DNA from: Aeriscardovia sp.
Lineage (GTDB): Bacteria > Actinomycetota > Actinomycetes > Actinomycetales > Bifidobacteriaceae
Assembly (NCBI GenBank): GCA_017537945.1
Contig: JAFYJT010000056.1
Coordinates: 1-36,883, forward strand
DNA: 36,883 bases
Reading direction: 5' to 3'
Positions 4,244-23,349 of this stretch are shown here, in pieces. The notes under the pieces were generated by a model. The model had not been told where the DNA came from. It ran no database searches and saw only the letters and a list, made by a program, of their open reading frames with translations. The position numbers were made by a program, and so were the translations under genes. Positions within the stretch are counted from its first letter, which is position 1, and each line of letters starts with the position of its first letter.

Positions 4244-4660
4244 ATGAGTGAAGCATTGCCCAAAGTGGAAGCCAAGTTCGGAGGCAGCGCCTCTATAACT
4301 TTTGAAGGCACGGAAAAAGCGGAAAAGCCGGAATTGGTATGCAAGGAACTGGTAAAGGGCGACGGGGCTACGGTTGAAAAGGGCGATACCGTCACTGTAA
4401 ACTACAGCGGAGTAGTGTGGGGCAAGAAAGCCCCCTTCGATTCAAGCTTCGCCAGAAAATCCCCCGCCAGCTTCCCGATAGGGAAAGGCATGCTGATTCG
4501 GGCCTGGGATGAAACGCTGATCGGAAAGACTGTAGGATCCAGGCTGCTGATCATAGCGCCGTCCGACTACGCCTACGGCAAAAGCGGGGTGCCCGAGGCA
4601 GGAATCGCCGGGGGGGACACCCTGGTGTTTGTTGTAGACATCCTTGCAGACAGAAAGTAG
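4244..4660 (+). CDS. FKBP-type peptidyl-prolyl cis-trans isomerase (cytoplasmic)
   Basis: Catalyses cis-trans isomerisation at X-Pro bonds and probably assists cytosolic protein folding. The 138 residues contain one FKBP domain, roughly 45-138. Its landmarks are VEKGDTVTVNYSGVVWGKK, FDSSFAR, FPIGKGMLIRAWDE, and the family end motif YAYGKSGVPEAGIAGGDTL followed by VFVVDIL. There is no signal peptide, in contrast with the lipoprotein FKBP at 30478-31440. An excellent ribosome site, AAGGAG at 4231-4236, lies 7 bases before ATG 4244. greA begins 6 bases after the stop, so the two are almost certainly co-transcribed. Confidence 0.93.
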   Translation: MSEALPKVEAKFGGSASITFEGTEKAEKPELVCKELVKGDGATVEKGDTVTVNYSGVVWGKKAPFDSSFARKSPASFPIGKGMLIRAWDETLIGKTVGSRLLIIAPSDYAYGKSGVPEAGIAGGDTLVFVVDILADRK

Positions 4661-4666
4661 GAAAAA

Positions 4667-5164
4667 ATGCCGGAAGAGGAAACCATCCTCCTCACCCAGG
4701 ACGCCTATGACAAGATGAAAAAGGAGCTGGACCACCTCGAAGGGGAAGTGCGCAGCCAGATAGCCCAGAAGATAAAAGAAGCTAGGGCCGAGGGGGATCT
4801 GAGCGAAAACGGCGGCTACCAGGCGGCTAAAGAGGCACAGGGCAAAAACGAGGGCAGGATTGCGGAGCTTACCCAAAAGCTCAGATCCGCGCGGATTATG
4901 GAGTCGCCCCGCGACGGAAAGGCAGCCAAGGAGGTGAGGGAAGGGAGCGTGGTAAAGCTTAAAGTCGGAAGCCAGGAGGGCGAATTCCTTTTGGGCGTCC
5001 GCGATCTTTCCTGCACCACCGACAAAAAGATAATCAGCGCCAAAAGCCCGATTGGGGCGGCCATCCTGAACCACTCCGCAGGGGAGACGGTGAGCTATGA
5101 AGCCCCCGGGGGCAGGAAGATGGAAGTCGAAATCCTGTCCGTCGCCCCGCTAAGCGAAGCGTAG
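4667..5164 (+). CDS. greA: Transcription elongation factor GreA
   Basis: Binds the RNA polymerase secondary channel and stimulates cleavage of backtracked RNA. The 165 residues show the standard two domains. The N-terminal antiparallel coiled coil (about 1-80) carries the tip motif EGDLSENGGYQAAKEAQGK, whose Asp and Glu are the catalytic acidic pair. The C-terminal FKBP-like domain has KSPIGAAILNHSAGETVSYEAPGG, typical of GreA. It follows FKBP by 6 bases. Its TAG stop ends at 5164 and the stop codon of the opposite-strand PAQR gene begins at 5165, leaving no room for an intrinsic terminator between the convergent genes. Confidence 0.96.
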   Translation: MPEEETILLTQDAYDKMKKELDHLEGEVRSQIAQKIKEARAEGDLSENGGYQAAKEAQGKNEGRIAELTQKLRSARIMESPRDGKAAKEVREGSVVKLKVGSQEGEFLLGVRDLSCTTDKKIISAKSPIGAAILNHSAGETVSYEAPGGRKMEVEILSVAPLSEA

Positions 5165-17493: not shown

Positions 17494-17521
17494 TTGCAAA
17501 CCCAAGAATGCCTCCTATAAT
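17494..17521 (+). promoter_or_regulatory. Sigma-70-type promoter of the oxc leader
   Basis: TTGCAA (17494-17499) and a perfect TATAAT (17516-17521) are 16 bases apart. It lies between the hsp20 stop and the leader hairpin. Transcription should start near 17528, giving a leader of about 102 bases that contains the hairpin and T-run before the oxc ribosome site. Confidence 0.7.
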
Positions 17522-17541
17522 GGGGGGCAAGATTAAGTTTT

Positions 17542-17600
17542 TTAATCATTGCGGGCGCCTTTTCCAACGCGAGTGCGTGAGGAAAAGGCGCCCGCTTTTT
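17542..17600 (+). promoter_or_regulatory. Leader hairpin plus T-run upstream of oxc (candidate attenuator, copy 1)
   Basis: A 15-bp perfect stem has arms at 17551-17565 and 17581-17595. It is topped by an inner 4-bp stem ACGC/GCGT with tetraloop GAGT and followed at once by TTTTT (17596-17600). As drawn it is a strong intrinsic terminator placed 29 bases before ATG 17630 and about 22 bases after the predicted transcription start. A second small stem, GATTAA/TTAATC (17531-17547), precedes it and shares bases with the repeat. It could simply terminate hsp20 read-through, but its place downstream of a promoter and its near-identical copy before frc argue for regulation. Confidence 0.7.
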
Positions 17601-17629
17601 AAATGGCTTTTTGTATTACAAGGAGCGAT

Positions 17630-19354
17630 ATGGCATCTGTAAAAATGAACGGCGCGGACCTTTTGGTCGAAGCGCTGAAGGCCAATGGCGTTAAGAACGT
17701 CTACGGCCTTGTGGGCATCCCCGTCACCGACGTTTCCCGCCTGATGGAAATGGAGGGGATTCACTTCTACGCCTTCCGGAGGGAGGACGCCGCAGTGGAG
17801 GCGGCAGCGGCCGCAGGCTACCTTACCGGCCGTCCGGGGATAGCCCTGACGGTGTCGGCGCCCGGCTTCCTCAACGGCCTGGTGGCCCTTAAAGAAGCTA
17901 CGGAAAACTGCTGGCCCGTAATCATGATTTCTGGCTCCTCCGACAGGGCCCTTGTAGACATGGACAGGGGCGAATACGAGGGGATGGATCAGTATAACGC
18001 GGCCAAGCCCTTCTGCAAGGCGGCATTTAGAATCGACAGGCCCGAAGACGTGGGCCTGGGGGTAGTCAGGGCCATAAGGGCGGCCATGGGCGGAAGGCCG
18101 GGAGGAGTTTACCTGGACGTCCCCGGAGAAATGCTGGGCCAGATGCTCGATTCCTCCATCGACCCCGCTTCCACCATCCACATCCCTGTCGATCCGGCCC
18201 CGGCCCAGTTCCCGAGCGACGAAGCCGTAAAGAGGGCAGTAGACCTCCTCACCTCCGCCAAGCGCCCGACGATCCTTTTGGGCAAGGGGGCCGCGTACGC
18301 AAAGGCCGAGGATCAAATCAGGGACCTTGTGGAATCCACCTCCATCCCCTTCCTGCCCATGAGCATGGCGAAGGGCATCATTCCGGACGGCAGCCCGCAC
18401 AGCGCCGCCGCGGCCCGCTCCCTTTCTTTGGGCAGCGCCGACGTAATCCTGATTTTGGGCGCCAGGCTTAACTGGCTGCTGGGCAACGGATCCTCCCCCA
18501 GGCCTTTTGCCCAAGACGTGAAGTTCATCCAGGTCGACATCGACGGGCAGGAAATAGACTCCAACCGCCACATAGCCGCCCCCCTTGTAGGCGACATGGT
18601 CTCGGTCCTGAGCAAATTCGTCCCGGCCGTCAAAAAGACGGGCTACAAGGCGCCCCAGGACTGGCTCGAGAAGATCGCCGAAAAGAAGGCCTCCAACGTT
18701 GAAAAGATGAGCAAAGCCGAAGAAGCGGGCAAGGACAAAGTTCCTATGGGCTTCTACGGGGCAATGCTCCCGATTCGGGACCTTATAGCCAAAAATCCGG
18801 ACACCTACCTCGTTTCCGAAGGCGCGAACACCCTGGACGTGGGAAGGGATGTAATCAACATCCTCCAGCCCCGGCACCGCCTCGACACCGGCACCTGGGG
18901 CGTAATGGGGGTAGGCCTCCCCTATGCCATTGCCGCGGCCGTGGAAACCGGAAGGCCCGTAATAGATTTGGCCGGCGATTCCGCGTTCGGCTTTGACGGA
19001 ATGGAAGCCGAGACAATGTGCAGGTACCACCTGCCCATAACCGTGGTCATCTGCAACAACGGCGGAATCTATAACGGGGAAGATCCCGAAATCAACGGGA
19101 TGGTGTCCCCCACTTACCTTGATCCCAGCGGCCAGTACGATCTGATGGCGCGCGCCTTTGGCGGAAGGGCCTACGACGTGCGCACCAACCAGGAGATGGA
19201 GGACGCGCTCAAGGAGGCTTACGACTCCAAGGAGCCCAGCATCATCAACGCCGTGCTTTCCACTTCCATGGGGAAGGAAAGCGGGCACATCGGCCACCTC
19301 AACCCCGTCATCTTCCATGAGGACGGCCCCGTAAATATGCCTAAAGAGAAATAA
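17630..19354 (+). CDS. oxc: Oxalyl-CoA decarboxylase
   Basis: Thiamine-diphosphate enzyme converting oxalyl-CoA to formyl-CoA and CO2, the proton-consuming step of oxalate breakdown. The 574 residues are the usual length. Seen are the N-terminal PYR domain with the conserved Glu in FRREDAAVEAAAAAGYL, and the oxalyl-CoA-site segment RGEYEGMDQYNAAKPFCKAAF near 113, with the Tyr-Glu pair known from the Oxalobacter enzyme. The ThDP/Mg site runs from GDSAFGFDGMEAET to VICNNGG (about 448-480). The C-terminal lid ESGHIGHLNP is near 551, with His where I recall Arg in Oxalobacter. AAGGAG at 17620-17625 fixes ATG 17630. The frame is open to 17603 but would start within the hairpin flank. Its partner frc follows. 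Confidence 0.96.
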   Translation: MASVKMNGADLLVEALKANGVKNVYGLVGIPVTDVSRLMEMEGIHFYAFRREDAAVEAAAAAGYLTGRPGIALTVSAPGFLNGLVALKEATENCWPVIMISGSSDRALVDMDRGEYEGMDQYNAAKPFCKAAFRIDRPEDVGLGVVRAIRAAMGGRPGGVYLDVPGEMLGQMLDSSIDPASTIHIPVDPAPAQFPSDEAVKRAVDLLTSAKRPTILLGKGAAYAKAEDQIRDLVESTSIPFLPMSMAKGIIPDGSPHSAAAARSLSLGSADVILILGARLNWLLGNGSSPRPFAQDVKFIQVDIDGQEIDSNRHIAAPLVGDMVSVLSKFVPAVKKTGYKAPQDWLEKIAEKKASNVEKMSKAEEAGKDKVPMGFYGAMLPIRDLIAKNPDTYLVSEGANTLDVGRDVINILQPRHRLDTGTWGVMGVGLPYAIAAAVETGRPVIDLAGDSAFGFDGMEAETMCRYHLPITVVICNNGGIYNGEDPEINGMVSPTYLDPSGQYDLMARAFGGRAYDVRTNQEMEDALKEAYDSKEPSIINAVLSTSMGKESGHIGHLNPVIFHEDGPVNMPKEK

Positions 19355-19402
19355 TTATTCCGCCTCCGCGGGATCGATCTATACTGAAACCGATCAGCAA
19401 AG

Positions 19403-19461
19403 TTAATCATTGCGGGCGCCTTTTCCAACGCGAGTGCGTGAGAAAGGGCGCCCGCTTTTTT
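19403..19461 (+). promoter_or_regulatory. Leader hairpin plus T-run upstream of frc (candidate attenuator, copy 2)
   Basis: Near-duplicate of the element before oxc. The first 40 bases are identical, including the apical stem-loop. The 3' arm differs by one deleted A and one A-to-G change, which keep the stem intact as a T-G wobble pair. The arms run from 19412 to 19455, then a run of six T. ATG 19504 is 42 bases beyond. A TATACT box (19380-19385) with a weak TTCCGC 16 bases upstream lies before the hairpin. It may act as the oxc terminator, an internal attenuator, or both. Confidence 0.7.
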
Positions 19462-19503
19462 GGATCTGCTTTGCAAATAAAAGCAAAAGAAAGGTGTCTA
19501 TTT

Positions 19504-20826
19504 ATGAATGAATTCGCACCGCTGAAGGGAATCACCGTAGTGGATTGGACGCAGGTCCAGTCCGGCCCCTCCTGCACCCAGATCCTGGCATGGCTGGGAG
19601 CCGACGTAATCAAGATCGAGAAGCCCGGCTCGGGAGATCCCACCCGCAATCAGCTCCTGGACATAGCCGACTCCTGGGGCCTTTACTTCCTGCAGCTCAA
19701 CGCCAACAAGAAGTCTCTGACTCTGGACGTGAGGACCGAGGCCGGAAAGAAGGTGCTTACCGAGCTGCTCAAGAAAGCCGACATCTTCGTGGAAAACATC
19801 AAGCCCGGCGGCGTAGACAAGCTCGGCTTCGGCTGGGAGGACGTGCATAAGCTTAACCCGCGCCTCATCATGGGAAGCATCAAGGGCTTCAACAAGGGTT
19901 CGCGCTTCGAGGATGTGAAGGCCTATGAGCCCGTAGCCCAGAGCGCCGGAGGCGCCGCCTCCGCCACCGGCTGGAACGAGGGCAAGTTCAACGTCCCCAC
20001 CCAGTCCGCGGCCGCCCTTGGGGACTCCAACTCCGGCATGCACCTCGTTATGGGCCTTCTTGCCGCCCTCGTGCAGAGGGACCGCACGGGCGAGGGATGC
20101 TTCGTGTACCAGTCCATGGTCAACGCCACCATCAACCTTTGCCGCATCAAGCTCCGCGACCAAATCATGCTCGACAACCTCGGCGCCCTCCCCCACTATG
20201 CCGTGTACGACACCGGCTTCAAGTGGGGCAAGGCCATCCCCAGGGCCGAAAATACCGAAGGCGGACAGGTCATCGGCTGGTGCTACAAGGCCAAGGGCTG
20301 GGACACCGACCCCAACGACTACGTCTACATCGTCATCCAGGATCCCAAGTCCAGCTGGGAAGCACTGTGCAACACTATAGGCAAGCCCGAGCTCATCGAC
20401 GATCCCCGCTTCGACACTTGGCAGCACCGCCAGTGCAACAAGGAGGCGCTCTACGCCGAAATCGAAGACTTCACCAAGAACTACGACAAGTTCGAGCTCA
20501 CCGAGAAGTTCAGCAAGGCCGGCCTCCCCTGCGGGCCCGTCATGGATTGGTACGAGCTTGAAAACGACCCGGATCTCAACTCCGACGGCACCATCGTCAC
20601 CATCGACGAGGGAGGCAACCGCGGAAACTTCAAGACCATCGGCCTTCCCTTCACCATGTCCAACTACAAGCCTGTTTACAAGCGCGCTCCCGATCTTGGA
20701 GAGAACAACAAGGAAATTCTCACCAACCTCGGATTCAGCGAGAGCGATATTCAGAACATGCTTGCTGATGGAACGATTTCCGAGGCCCGCGGGCCGAAGA
20801 ACGCCGCTCCAAAGGTGATCAAGTAG
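19504..20826 (+). CDS. frc: Formyl-CoA:oxalate CoA-transferase
   Basis: Class III CoA-transferase that moves CoA from formyl-CoA to oxalate, regenerating oxalyl-CoA for Oxc and releasing formate. The 440 residues fit FRC/YfdW. The N-terminus TVVDWTQVQSGPSCTQILAW is typical. The catalytic Asp is in AALGDSNSGMH near residue 174, and AYEPVAQSAGGAASATG precedes it as in known FRCs. The glycine loop near 258 reads EGGQ, shorter than the Oxalobacter GGGGQ. AAAGGTG before ATG 19504 fixes the start; the frame is open back to 19438 through the hairpin. Codon use differs from the window average, with isoleucine nearly all ATC and arginine mostly CGC. Confidence 0.96.
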   Translation: MNEFAPLKGITVVDWTQVQSGPSCTQILAWLGADVIKIEKPGSGDPTRNQLLDIADSWGLYFLQLNANKKSLTLDVRTEAGKKVLTELLKKADIFVENIKPGGVDKLGFGWEDVHKLNPRLIMGSIKGFNKGSRFEDVKAYEPVAQSAGGAASATGWNEGKFNVPTQSAAALGDSNSGMHLVMGLLAALVQRDRTGEGCFVYQSMVNATINLCRIKLRDQIMLDNLGALPHYAVYDTGFKWGKAIPRAENTEGGQVIGWCYKAKGWDTDPNDYVYIVIQDPKSSWEALCNTIGKPELIDDPRFDTWQHRQCNKEALYAEIEDFTKNYDKFELTEKFSKAGLPCGPVMDWYELENDPDLNSDGTIVTIDEGGNRGNFKTIGLPFTMSNYKPVYKRAPDLGENNKEILTNLGFSESDIQNMLADGTISEARGPKNAAPKVIK

Positions 20827-20839
20827 GTAAGTTACGACA

Positions 20840-20879
20840 AAGGGGGAAAACTTAAAGTTAAGTTTTCCCCCTTATTTTT
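20840..20879 (+). terminator. Intrinsic terminator after frc
   Basis: Perfect 15-bp stem (AAGGGGGAAAACTTA with its complement) around a 4-base loop, followed by ATTTTT. It begins 13 bases after the frc stop and ends 15 bases before the carrier gene, so the carrier is probably transcribed by read-through or from a separate promoter. Unlike the three leader hairpins, this one has no sequence kinship to them. Confidence 0.88.
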
Positions 20880-20894
20880 CCAATAGGACTTCTC

Positions 20895-21935
20895 ATGAAT
20901 ATAGGGAAGATTATCGTAGATGACCTGGTGCCAATCCTGGTCATCATGGCCCTGGGCTGGTGCCTGGGCTGGAAATGGAAGGGACAGAAAAAGCCCTTCA
21001 TCGACAATGACGGCCGAAAGGCCCTGAACTACTTCGTGTTGGACGTCGCGCTTCCCGCCGCCTTGTTTGCTTCCATTGCAAAGGCTTCGAGAAGGCTCTT
21101 CATCAAAGACGGAGTTCTGACCCTCATTTCCTTTATCGGCGTCACGGCGCTCTTCATGCTTTGCTACTACTTGGACAAGTGGCTGTTCAAGCGCAACAAG
21201 GCGGAAGCCGCCATCTGCGCCTTGATTGCAGGCTCCCCGACCATCGGGTTCTTGGGATTTGCAGTTCTCGATCCGATTTTCGGAGATACCACCAACACCA
21301 ATCTGGTGATTGGCATTATATCCATCGTTGTAAACGCCATTACTATTCCTATAGGCGTGTCTTTGGTGGAAAGCTACCTGAACGAGGAGGCCGCTAAAAA
21401 CGGCACTCTGAAGGAATACAACGAAAAAGGCAAGAAGATCCACCGCGGAGCCGGATGGTCCATCCTCCGCGCCTGCTGCAAGCCTGTAGCTGCGGCTCCT
21501 ATCCTCGCCGTCATTTGGGTCTTGATTGGGATTCCGTGGCCTTCCTGGCTCACCCCCAACTTCACCTTGATAGCCAAGGCAAACTCAGGGGTCGCCGTTC
21601 TTGCGGCAGGCGTCGCACTGGCCGCCACCGGCACCTTTGCCTTCAGCTGGGAAATTATCTGGAACGTTTTCTACCGCCTGCTCCTCATGCCTGGCATCCT
21701 GGTTTTCGTAGGGTACCTGTGCGGAATGTGGAGGGACCCCAACAGCCTCATACTTCTTGAGATGCTGGCGCTTGGCACGGGCCTCCCCCCCGCCATGAGC
21801 GGCGTCATAATTTCCAGTCAAAACAACATCTATGTCAAGGAAGGCACAAGTACCTTGGCTATTTCCACAGTCTGTTTTGCAGGTACATGCGTGCTGTGGA
21901 TTTGGCTGATACCACTCATCGCCCACGCCCTATAG
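20895..21935 (+). CDS. AEC-family transporter (YfdV-like, candidate oxalate/formate carrier)
   Basis: Membrane carrier of the auxin efflux carrier family, with 346 residues and about ten hydrophobic helices. Segments such as IIVDDLVPILVIMALGWCLG at the N-terminus, ALNYFVLDVALPAALFASIA (conserved family region with a Pro in the second helix) and AGSPTIGFLGFAVLDPIFG support the family. Related proteins export organic acids or malate. In E. coli the family member yfdV lies inside the oxalate-linked yfd operon, so oxalate uptake or formate exit is a reasonable but unproven guess. AGGA about 10 bases upstream is a weak ribosome site for ATG 20895. No hairpin of the oxc/frc type precedes this gene. 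Confidence 0.85.
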   Translation: MNIGKIIVDDLVPILVIMALGWCLGWKWKGQKKPFIDNDGRKALNYFVLDVALPAALFASIAKASRRLFIKDGVLTLISFIGVTALFMLCYYLDKWLFKRNKAEAAICALIAGSPTIGFLGFAVLDPIFGDTTNTNLVIGIISIVVNAITIPIGVSLVESYLNEEAAKNGTLKEYNEKGKKIHRGAGWSILRACCKPVAAAPILAVIWVLIGIPWPSWLTPNFTLIAKANSGVAVLAAGVALAATGTFAFSWEIIWNVFYRLLLMPGILVFVGYLCGMWRDPNSLILLEMLALGTGLPPAMSGVIISSQNNIYVKEGTSTLAISTVCFAGTCVLWIWLIPLIAHAL

Positions 21936-22067
21936 CGTAGGCGAAGCTTGTGCCTTCATTTTGAGTGGCAGAAACGTCTTTTTGTTCCAATCTCCAGGGA
22001 ACGTATGGCCGTTGCCTGGTACGAAGGGCGCCGGCCAAAGGCGCGCCTTTGGCGGACTTGAAGACAT
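21936..22067 (+). promoter_or_regulatory. Intergenic region with operator-like inverted repeats upstream of the second CoA-transferase
   Basis: Contains a perfect 20-bp palindrome, GCCAAAGGCGCGCCTTTGGC, at 22034-22053, and a looser inverted repeat GTTCC-N9-GGAAC at 21984-22002. Both could be protein-binding sites or RNA stems. I see no clear promoter hexamers; TTGTTC near 21982 is a possible -35. The leader hairpin follows directly. Confidence 0.5.
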
Positions 22068-22109
22068 GCGGGAGCTTTCCGGCGCTCGGCCGGGGGCGCC
22101 CGCTTTTTT
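22068..22109 (+). promoter_or_regulatory. Leader hairpin plus T-run upstream of the second CoA-transferase (diverged copy 3)
   Basis: The 5' arm GCGGGAGCTTTCC resembles GCGGGCGCCTTTTCC of the oxc and frc elements, and the 3' arm ends in the same GGGCGCCCGC followed by six T (22104-22109). The stem pairs with one A-G mismatch and several T-G wobbles, and the loop differs. The spacing to ATG 22138 is 28 bases, matching copy 1. An ancestral relation to copies 1 and 2 is inferred from arm sequence and position. Confidence 0.55.
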
Positions 22110-22137
22110 AATGGGCCGTCTTTATGAAAGGAAAAAA

Positions 22138-23349
22138 ATGCAAGAAAAGCAGGATCCCGACTATAAGAAGGTGGCGCAAGAGGACCCGCGCCTGGATCCG
22201 AACAAGCCTTACCCCCTCGAAGGGGTGCTGGTGGTGGATCTCACCCGGGTGCTTTCGGGTCCGACCTGCACCAGGATGCTGGCGGACGCCGGAGCCAGGG
22301 TGATACATGTGGAGAGGCCCCCCAAGGGAGACGATACCCGGAGCATGGGGCCCTACGTGGCCGACGGCTCTTCCGACTACTTCCGCATCGCCAACGTCGG
22401 GAAAGAGTCCATAGCCCTGGACTTCCGCAATCCCGGGGACCACGCCTTCCTCATGAAGATGATTGCAAAGGCGGACGTGGTGGTGGAAAACTTCCGCCCG
22501 GGCGTCATGGCTAAAAACGGACTAGACCCCGAAGAGCTCGTCAAAAAGTTCCCGCGCCTCATCGTCTGCTCCATTTCCGGCTTCGGGCAGTGGGGGCCGA
22601 TGTCAAAGGCGGCCGCCTACGATACCGTAGTGCAGGCTTGGAGCGGCCTTATGGAGCTTACGGGCCTTCCGGCTGATGAAGGGGGAACGCCTACGCGAGT
22701 GGGCACATCCATTTCCGACATCGTCGCCGGCATCTACGGCTACGCCGGAATTGCGACGGCCCTGTACGCCAGGGAGAAGACCGGAAAAGGGACCACTGTC
22801 GACATCTCCATGCTCGACGCCTCCTTCTCCCTCATGGCCCAGGGCCTTATGAGCTCCCTAGGGCTCGGAGAGCGGCCCAAGAGGATTGGAAACCGCCACC
22901 CCTACATGTATCCTTTCGACACCTTCATGTGCGCAGACGAAATGGTGGCGATCTGCTGCGGAAACGACCGCCTCTGGGGCCTTTTAAGCTCCTGCCTGGG
23001 CCACCCCGAGTGGGCCGAGGATCCCGATATGATCACAAACGACCTTAGGGAGAAGAACTGGAGGAAGGTCAAAGGCCTTATGGAGGGCGTGCTCTCCTCG
23101 GCCCCGGCCCAGGAGTGGCAGAAAAAGATTTCAGAAGCCGGCGTGCCCTGCGGCCTTTGCCTTAATGTGGACGACACCCGCCGCATGCCCCAAATAGTTT
23201 CCAGGGGCATGGTCAAAGAAATGCCTGACGGCCAGCTCGTCCTGGGGGATCCCTTCAAGTTTGGCGCCTGGAACTCCTACGGGGCCCAAAAAGACGCCCC
23301 CAAGTACGACGAGGACGGCGCTAGGATCAGGAAGGAATTTGGAGAATAA
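22138..23349 (+). CDS. Class III CoA-transferase (CaiB/BaiF family), possibly acetyl-CoA:oxalate CoA-transferase
   Basis: The 403 residues show the family features. These are LVVDLTRVLSGPTCTRMLADAGARVIHVE at the N-terminus, VVVENFRPGVM, SISGFGQWGP, the catalytic Asp in VGTSISDIVAG near 193, and the C-terminal AGVPCGLCLNVDD. In E. coli the oxalate cluster also holds a second CoA-transferase, YfdE, reported to use acetyl-CoA and oxalate. The equivalent position here suggests a priming role that makes the first oxalyl-CoA. Another CoA acceptor such as succinate is possible, because the family is promiscuous. AAAGGA at 22127-22132 selects ATG 22138. The frame is open upstream to 21961 through the hairpin, which is not used. 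Confidence 0.85.
   Translation: MQEKQDPDYKKVAQEDPRLDPNKPYPLEGVLVVDLTRVLSGPTCTRMLADAGARVIHVERPPKGDDTRSMGPYVADGSSDYFRIANVGKESIALDFRNPGDHAFLMKMIAKADVVVENFRPGVMAKNGLDPEELVKKFPRLIVCSISGFGQWGPMSKAAAYDTVVQAWSGLMELTGLPADEGGTPTRVGTSISDIVAGIYGYAGIATALYAREKTGKGTTVDISMLDASFSLMAQGLMSSLGLGERPKRIGNRHPYMYPFDTFMCADEMVAICCGNDRLWGLLSSCLGHPEWAEDPDMITNDLREKNWRKVKGLMEGVLSSAPAQEWQKKISEAGVPCGLCLNVDDTRRMPQIVSRGMVKEMPDGQLVLGDPFKFGAWNSYGAQKDAPKYDEDGARIRKEFGE

Follow-up and report, generated by a model that had tools for sequence, protein, structure and literature searches.

The stretch of DNA analysed here (the window; 36,883 nt of contig JAFYJT010000056.1 of Aeriscardovia sp., assembly GCA_017537945.1, read on the forward strand) carries an oxalate locus with the gene order hsp20, oxc, frc, AEC carrier, second CoA-transferase, tRNA-Met (on the opposite strand) and ATP synthase. 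Immediately upstream of oxc and of frc lie two closely related leaders, which together look like a switch, apparently undescribed, that turns oxalate breakdown on and off. The window corresponds to contig 4 of the assembled genome (0.82 Mb), and the host organism is a member of the Bifidobacteriaceae with a reduced genome. For genome-wide scans the assembly was read piecewise, covering 815 of its 817 kb, and the family-wide comparison drew on 189 Bifidobacteriaceae genomes, with seven species (seven genomes) from the genus of the window. The genomes compared are metagenome-assembled, and all inference is made from sequence. The two genes, their predicted promoters and the parts of their leaders are listed below, with fold z values given relative to shuffled sequences.

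17494–17521, + strand: predicted oxc promoter of the sigma70 type (TTGCAA-16-TATAAT), which matches the consensus at 10 of 12 positions; hexamers kept in all seven species
17531–17547, + strand: P1, the small 5′ hairpin with which the oxc leader opens (GATTAA-GTTTT-TTAATC); present in the minimum-free-energy structure, pairing kept in most copies
17551–17595, + strand: terminator hairpin of the oxc leader; predicted leader fold of −41.5 kcal/mol, z −6.9, and an alignment of 14 copies
17564–17582, + strand: invariant apex of this hairpin (ACGC-GAGT-GCGT mini-stem with an A/GA internal loop); the same in 13 of 14 copies, the frc copy of the window differing at the last base
17596–17600, + strand: U-run of the oxc leader, from the sequence; a T-rich tail is retained in all 14 copies
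17630–19354, + strand: oxc, oxalyl-CoA decarboxylase (NCBIfam TIGR03254, 837 bits against a cut-off of 739)
19380–19385, + strand: predicted −10 box of the frc promoter, TATACT; in each of the seven species a −10-like hexamer stands at this position, in several of them with a −35 box TTTACA or TTGAAA at 17 nt
19392–19408, + strand: 5′ part of the frc leader matching P1, with one mismatch in the window species
19412–19455, + strand: terminator hairpin of the frc leader, near-identical to that of oxc (98% identity across 43 nt); predicted leader fold of −37.3 kcal/mol, z −5.1, and the alignment
19456–19461, + strand: U-run of the frc leader, from the sequence
19504–20826, + strand: frc, formyl-CoA transferase (NCBIfam TIGR03253, 663 bits against a cut-off of 504)

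Both leaders (17531–17600 and 19392–19461) are built on a common block, in which the small 5′ hairpin is followed by a spacer, TTAATCATT, by a GC-rich hairpin with the arms GCGGGCGC...GCGCCCGC, and by a U-run at the end. The 19-nt apex of the GC-rich hairpin, CCAACGCGAGTGCGTGAGG, contains a 4-bp ACGC/GCGU mini-stem, a GAGU loop and an A/GA internal loop. Where the alignment row for P1 is broken at several pairs, this is mainly due to a single copy (G005_frc) that is shifted by one column. Homology between the two leaders extends from the predicted +1 to about 12 nt beyond the U-run, whereas the promoters themselves are unrelated. Its confinement to this segment, under differing promoters, points to a transcribed leader and not just to a terminator that ends the preceding gene. 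In all seven species the predicted oxc promoter is located between hsp20 and the oxc hairpin.

As a sequence-level prediction, both oxc and frc have an intrinsic terminator between promoter and start codon, as in an attenuator. The distance from U-run to start codon is 29 nt for oxc and 42 nt for frc, which leaves no space for a second promoter plus a ribosome site; if the hairpins terminate, read-through would be the sole route to transcription of the two genes. Inspection of the leader disclosed no leader peptide with a ribosome site, just a GTG frame without such a site inside the hairpin. Around the oxc −10 box, at 17512–17529 of the window, we also observed an inverted repeat (TGCCYCC-TATAAT-GGGGGGCA) that is kept in the genus, its left half partly as pyrimidines only; it is a possible operator.

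Both leader copies occupy the same two places in each of the seven genomes of the genus (14 copies), and a covariance model scanned against the 189 family genomes recovers them at E values of about 1e-20 to 1e-25. The preliminary description of this DNA had proposed such a scan for copies upstream of oxc and frc in related genomes: they were found in seven species, but are confined to the genus, since outside it the model gives weak matches only, and those inspected resemble ordinary terminators or tRNA-adjacent sequence. Within the genome of the window the element occurs twice only, both times at the oxalate locus, and it is absent from the plasmid and viral collections searched. An origin as a dispersed palindromic repeat, a mobile repeat or a transposon was rejected, the element having two genomic places that are fixed in position across species.

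A single base in one of the 14 copies is the only variation in apex and spacer. The four-fold degenerate sites of oxc, by comparison, are 53% identical pairwise between species, which is near saturation for several pairs, and 19% of them are invariant (five species). The invariance of apex and spacer despite such divergence means that both are, on these alignments, under strong selection. Three upper-stem positions alternate between C-G, U-G and U-A with pairing kept, and these replacements lend weak support to pairing at the RNA level.

The hairpins differ at 1.3 positions on average within a genome versus 3.2 between orthologues of different species, a contrast equalled by 8 of 5040 permutations of the labels. 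Four variants of the 5′ arm occur across the genus, but any one genome has the same 5′ arm in both of its hairpins; the 3′ arm drifts, and P1 is locus-specific. The within-genome likeness of the hairpins could arise from gene conversion or from a common trans-acting reader. The unvarying 5′ half and apex suggest, although they do not prove, that the nascent 5′ half is recognised before the terminator closes.

Downstream of frc, the locus continues with two further genes and the hairpins that precede them.

20840–20873, + strand: hairpin resembling a terminator, located between frc and the carrier gene and unrelated to the oxc/frc element; T-run lost in several species
20895–21935, + strand: AEC family carrier (YfdV-like); Pfam Mem_trans, with NCBIfam NF007384 under its cut-off
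22068–22109, + strand: hairpin (22068–22103) and U-run (T-run 22104–22109) upstream of the second CoA-transferase; arms shared, apex variable in the genus
22138–23349, + strand: second class III CoA-transferase, nearest to CoA:oxalate CoA-transferase (PRK11430) at 382.7 bits, under the cut-off of 522

All four genes (oxc, frc, carrier and second CoA-transferase) have a hairpin just upstream of the ribosome site. The preliminary description had named exactly three related leaders among them, those of oxc, frc and the second CoA-transferase, with GCGGG...CCCGC arms and a T-run, and had set the carrier-gene terminator apart. The hairpins do lie where it placed them (T-run 17596–17600 and ATG 17630 for oxc; T-run 19456–19461 and ATG 19504 for frc; T-run 22104–22109 and ATG 22138 for the second CoA-transferase), all three have the arms, and the carrier hairpin, only about 20 nt upstream of its start codon, is indeed unrelated. 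The oxc and frc leaders are true copies of each other; the third is not a copy, and the locus is better described as one paralogous pair plus two ordinary-looking terminators. Likewise, the idea of a shared cis-acting leader holds for oxc and frc, where a terminator-like hairpin stands between a conserved promoter and the gene throughout the genus, but reaches the second CoA-transferase in the arm ends only. What its hairpin has in common with those of oxc and frc is these ends and GGGCGCCCGCTTTTTT, the apex being unrelated.

Across the seven species, the arms and U-run of the second CoA-transferase leader are kept, and its apex, its loop length and the 100-plus nt upstream vary freely. The 87-nt region containing this hairpin folds no better than shuffled sequences (z −0.7), and the covariance model matches the hairpin in two species only, with E values of 0.012 and 0.066; we would class it preferably as an ordinary terminator or a separate attenuator. 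Besides the three in the oxalate locus, the 815-kb assembly has one further hairpin with GCGGG...CCCGC arms and a T-run (contig C44); the scan itself listed two of the three locus copies, the oxc T-run falling under its threshold. Directly 3′ of the carrier stop codon, at 21943–21972 of the window, a block GAAGCTTGTGCC...TTTTGAGTGG is kept in all seven species, and around it the remaining intergenic sequence between carrier and CoA-transferase varies between species. The genomes of the genus (G000–G006), whose members are bifidobacteria of rumen and gut, measure 0.6–0.9 Mb at an estimated completeness of up to 100%, a genome reduction that is extreme for the Bifidobacteriaceae; phosphoketolase is retained, and the oxalate locus adjoins the ATP synthase operon.

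Based on the above data, we lean, without great confidence, towards a mechanism in which the oxc and frc leaders act as paired transcription attenuators read by a factor in trans. The two genes would be separate transcription units, each opening with the same roughly 70-nt leader that consists of the small 5′ hairpin, the invariant spacer and a strong intrinsic terminator 29–42 nt upstream of the start codon. By default, the polymerase would halt at the U-run and a short leader RNA would be released, oxc and frc being made only upon read-through. How much read-through occurs would probably depend on a factor acting in trans (an RNA-binding protein in the likeliest case, a metabolite less so), which would recognise the invariant 5′ half and the apex in the nascent RNA and either block completion of the hairpin or stabilise it. 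A single factor reading both copies would switch both steps of oxalate breakdown together. The sequence, position, conservation and copy number of the leaders and the concerted change of their hairpins are direct observations; we infer the start sites, the termination, this factor and the signal to which it would respond.

Growing-prefix folding of the 14 leaders found no antiterminator common to all copies, only inconsistent weak intermediates. The terminator forms without a visible competing fold, which makes a trans-acting factor likelier than a classical riboswitch; a switch of the latter type is not indicated, no alternative antiterminator fold common to the 14 leaders having been found. 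No Rfam family matches the leaders in either gathering or permissive scans. A further proposal, which we hold tentatively and rather doubt, is that they belong to a hitherto undescribed leader RNA class whose terminator hairpin would contain its own receptor, formed by the invariant apex and 5′ half. Either a dedicated protein or, directly, a metabolite of the oxalate pathway would read this receptor, and its duplication to both genes would let them switch together. Regarding possible factors, the genome encodes a single NusG and one response regulator with an ANTAR domain (contig C1), and a scan for trans-encoded complements of the apex elsewhere in the genome returned chance 11-mers only.

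Several points weigh against paired attenuation. The start sites and termination at the hairpins are predictions, and in the window species frc has a weak −35 box. Covariation is without statistical support: a single pair has changed in both of its bases, and the score is matched by 83 of 500 shuffles, although this is uninformative because most pairs never vary. Gene conversion by itself could be sufficient for the similarity of the hairpins within a genome. No CAT-type antiterminator (CAT_RBD protein) was found in the genome, and the loops required by the ANTAR protein do not fit those of the leader. Moreover, other oxc genes outside the genus lack the element, so that control of oxalate degradation does not require it; almost all of the Bifidobacterium and Lactobacillus genomes examined yielded no leader attenuator upstream of oxc, and few oxc genes outside the genus, those of Bifidobacterium included, have a hairpin of comparable form ahead of the start.

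The main rival to paired attenuation, which we judge unlikely but take seriously, is that the hairpins are constitutive partial terminators: they would close off the hsp20 and oxc transcripts, and a constant share of the polymerases coming from the oxc and frc promoters would get past them, which would set the expression level and provide insulation with no signal involved. Neither hsp20 nor oxc has another terminator downstream, and the carrier and second CoA-transferase likewise have terminator-like hairpins before their starts, so read-through seems usual at this locus. However, a plain terminator needs no invariant 19-nt apex and spacer, and the apexes of the other two hairpins of the locus vary freely. 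The unpaired and bulged nucleotides are invariant as well, which, together with the placement before both pathway genes, would suit a metabolite riboswitch that makes a regulator unnecessary, the apex, or the 5′ hairpin with the spacer, binding oxalate, oxalyl-CoA, formyl-CoA or formate and shifting termination. Such a riboswitch would be very small, with its presumed receptor placed within the terminator, and it would have neither an alternative antiterminator fold nor an Rfam match; we regard it as improbable.

Considered as DNA, the apex is an imperfect palindrome, an ACGC-N4-GCGT dyad about 40 bp past the start site, to which a repressor that blocks elongation might bind as at an operator or roadblock, and a second palindrome surrounds the oxc −10 box. 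This is quite improbable: the conserved block far exceeds operator size and is directional, with a T-run on one strand only, G-U pairs break the DNA symmetry yet keep the RNA pairing, and the site was not seen at any other promoter in the genome. Promoter, hairpin and U-run also make up a complete small RNA unit, present in two copies, whose 70-nt product might itself function on other mRNAs while oxc and frc are reached through leakage. We consider small RNA genes very improbable: most of the apex is paired, without an obvious seed, every species has both copies in fixed position at oxc and frc, and no convincing target complement appeared in the intergenic DNA searched. Antitermination by the response regulator of contig C1 is hardly credible, even though the genome does encode this one ANTAR-type protein and the second of the two hairpins in the leader is the terminator. 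ANTAR targets consist of two short hairpins with six-base loops that carry A at position 1 and G at position 4 (PMC3369931), a form that the loops here lack, and no antiterminator pair overlaps the terminator.

In Lactobacillus, oxc and frc are induced by oxalate and acid at the RNA level (review PMC8773937), and, as cited in that review, a 2010 study addressed acid effects on transcript levels in Bifidobacterium animalis. Unlike the oxc-frc of L. acidophilus, which is described as an operon (PMC8773937), oxc and frc here each have their own predicted promoter and leader. A search of the openly accessible literature disclosed no control of oxalate degradation at the RNA level.

In the sister genus, a conserved block TGTCC[AG]CTGGGCGGAATGGCGTAG[AG]GGA stands at the predicted oxc start site (L123:2328-2355 in G016; L036:3897-3924; L124, reverse strand, in G029). 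It folds into a hairpin whose loop has 6 nt and whose internal loops are 1x1, occurs once per genome and is strongly constrained, since its flanks in G029 are completely different. Local alignment did not support this hairpin as a homologue of the oxc/frc element. The sister-genus frc leader (L036:7230-7440; L123:5230-5440) contains a conserved, structured-looking stretch, GTCCCAGC..., AGCGGCAT...GAGAACCGCT, which is possibly another cis-regulatory RNA; its L036 copy has no Rfam match. The second CoA-transferase beside oxc is apparently broken in two sister-genus genomes (L123 about 4350-5050; L132 and L036 after oxc), with short matches in several frames, and is intact in G029.

Protein-dependent attenuators (ANTAR/EutV-NasR, LicT/SacY and the L10 leader) likewise use a promoter-proximal intrinsic terminator that is read through by means of an RNA-binding protein. 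The LicT/SacY and L10 leader attenuators possess a defined antiterminator or binding fold. A fold of this kind, as defined for any of these systems, was not seen in the oxc and frc leaders. As a precedent, the rimP leader comes closest: it too is short and consists in essence of a strongly conserved, GC-rich terminator stem with a U-run before a gene, it has no visible antiterminator, and a termination/antitermination protein has been proposed for it (PMC2965389). Identity with the rimP leader was rejected, as the present element precedes oxc and frc and has no Rfam match. Whereas the rimP leader controls rimP-nusA-infB in many phyla, the leaders described here belong to oxalate catabolism in one genus, with two copies per genome, and their most distinctive part is the apex, as opposed to the GGGC...GCCC stem of the rimP leader. 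If paired attenuation is correct, it would show a strongly reduced bifidobacterium retaining control over a pathway relevant to dietary oxalate in ruminants. The oxc/frc leader can be studied in vitro by itself, and it would then provide a compact two-copy system for how a terminator without an antiterminator is regulated, a question that it shares with the rimP leader.

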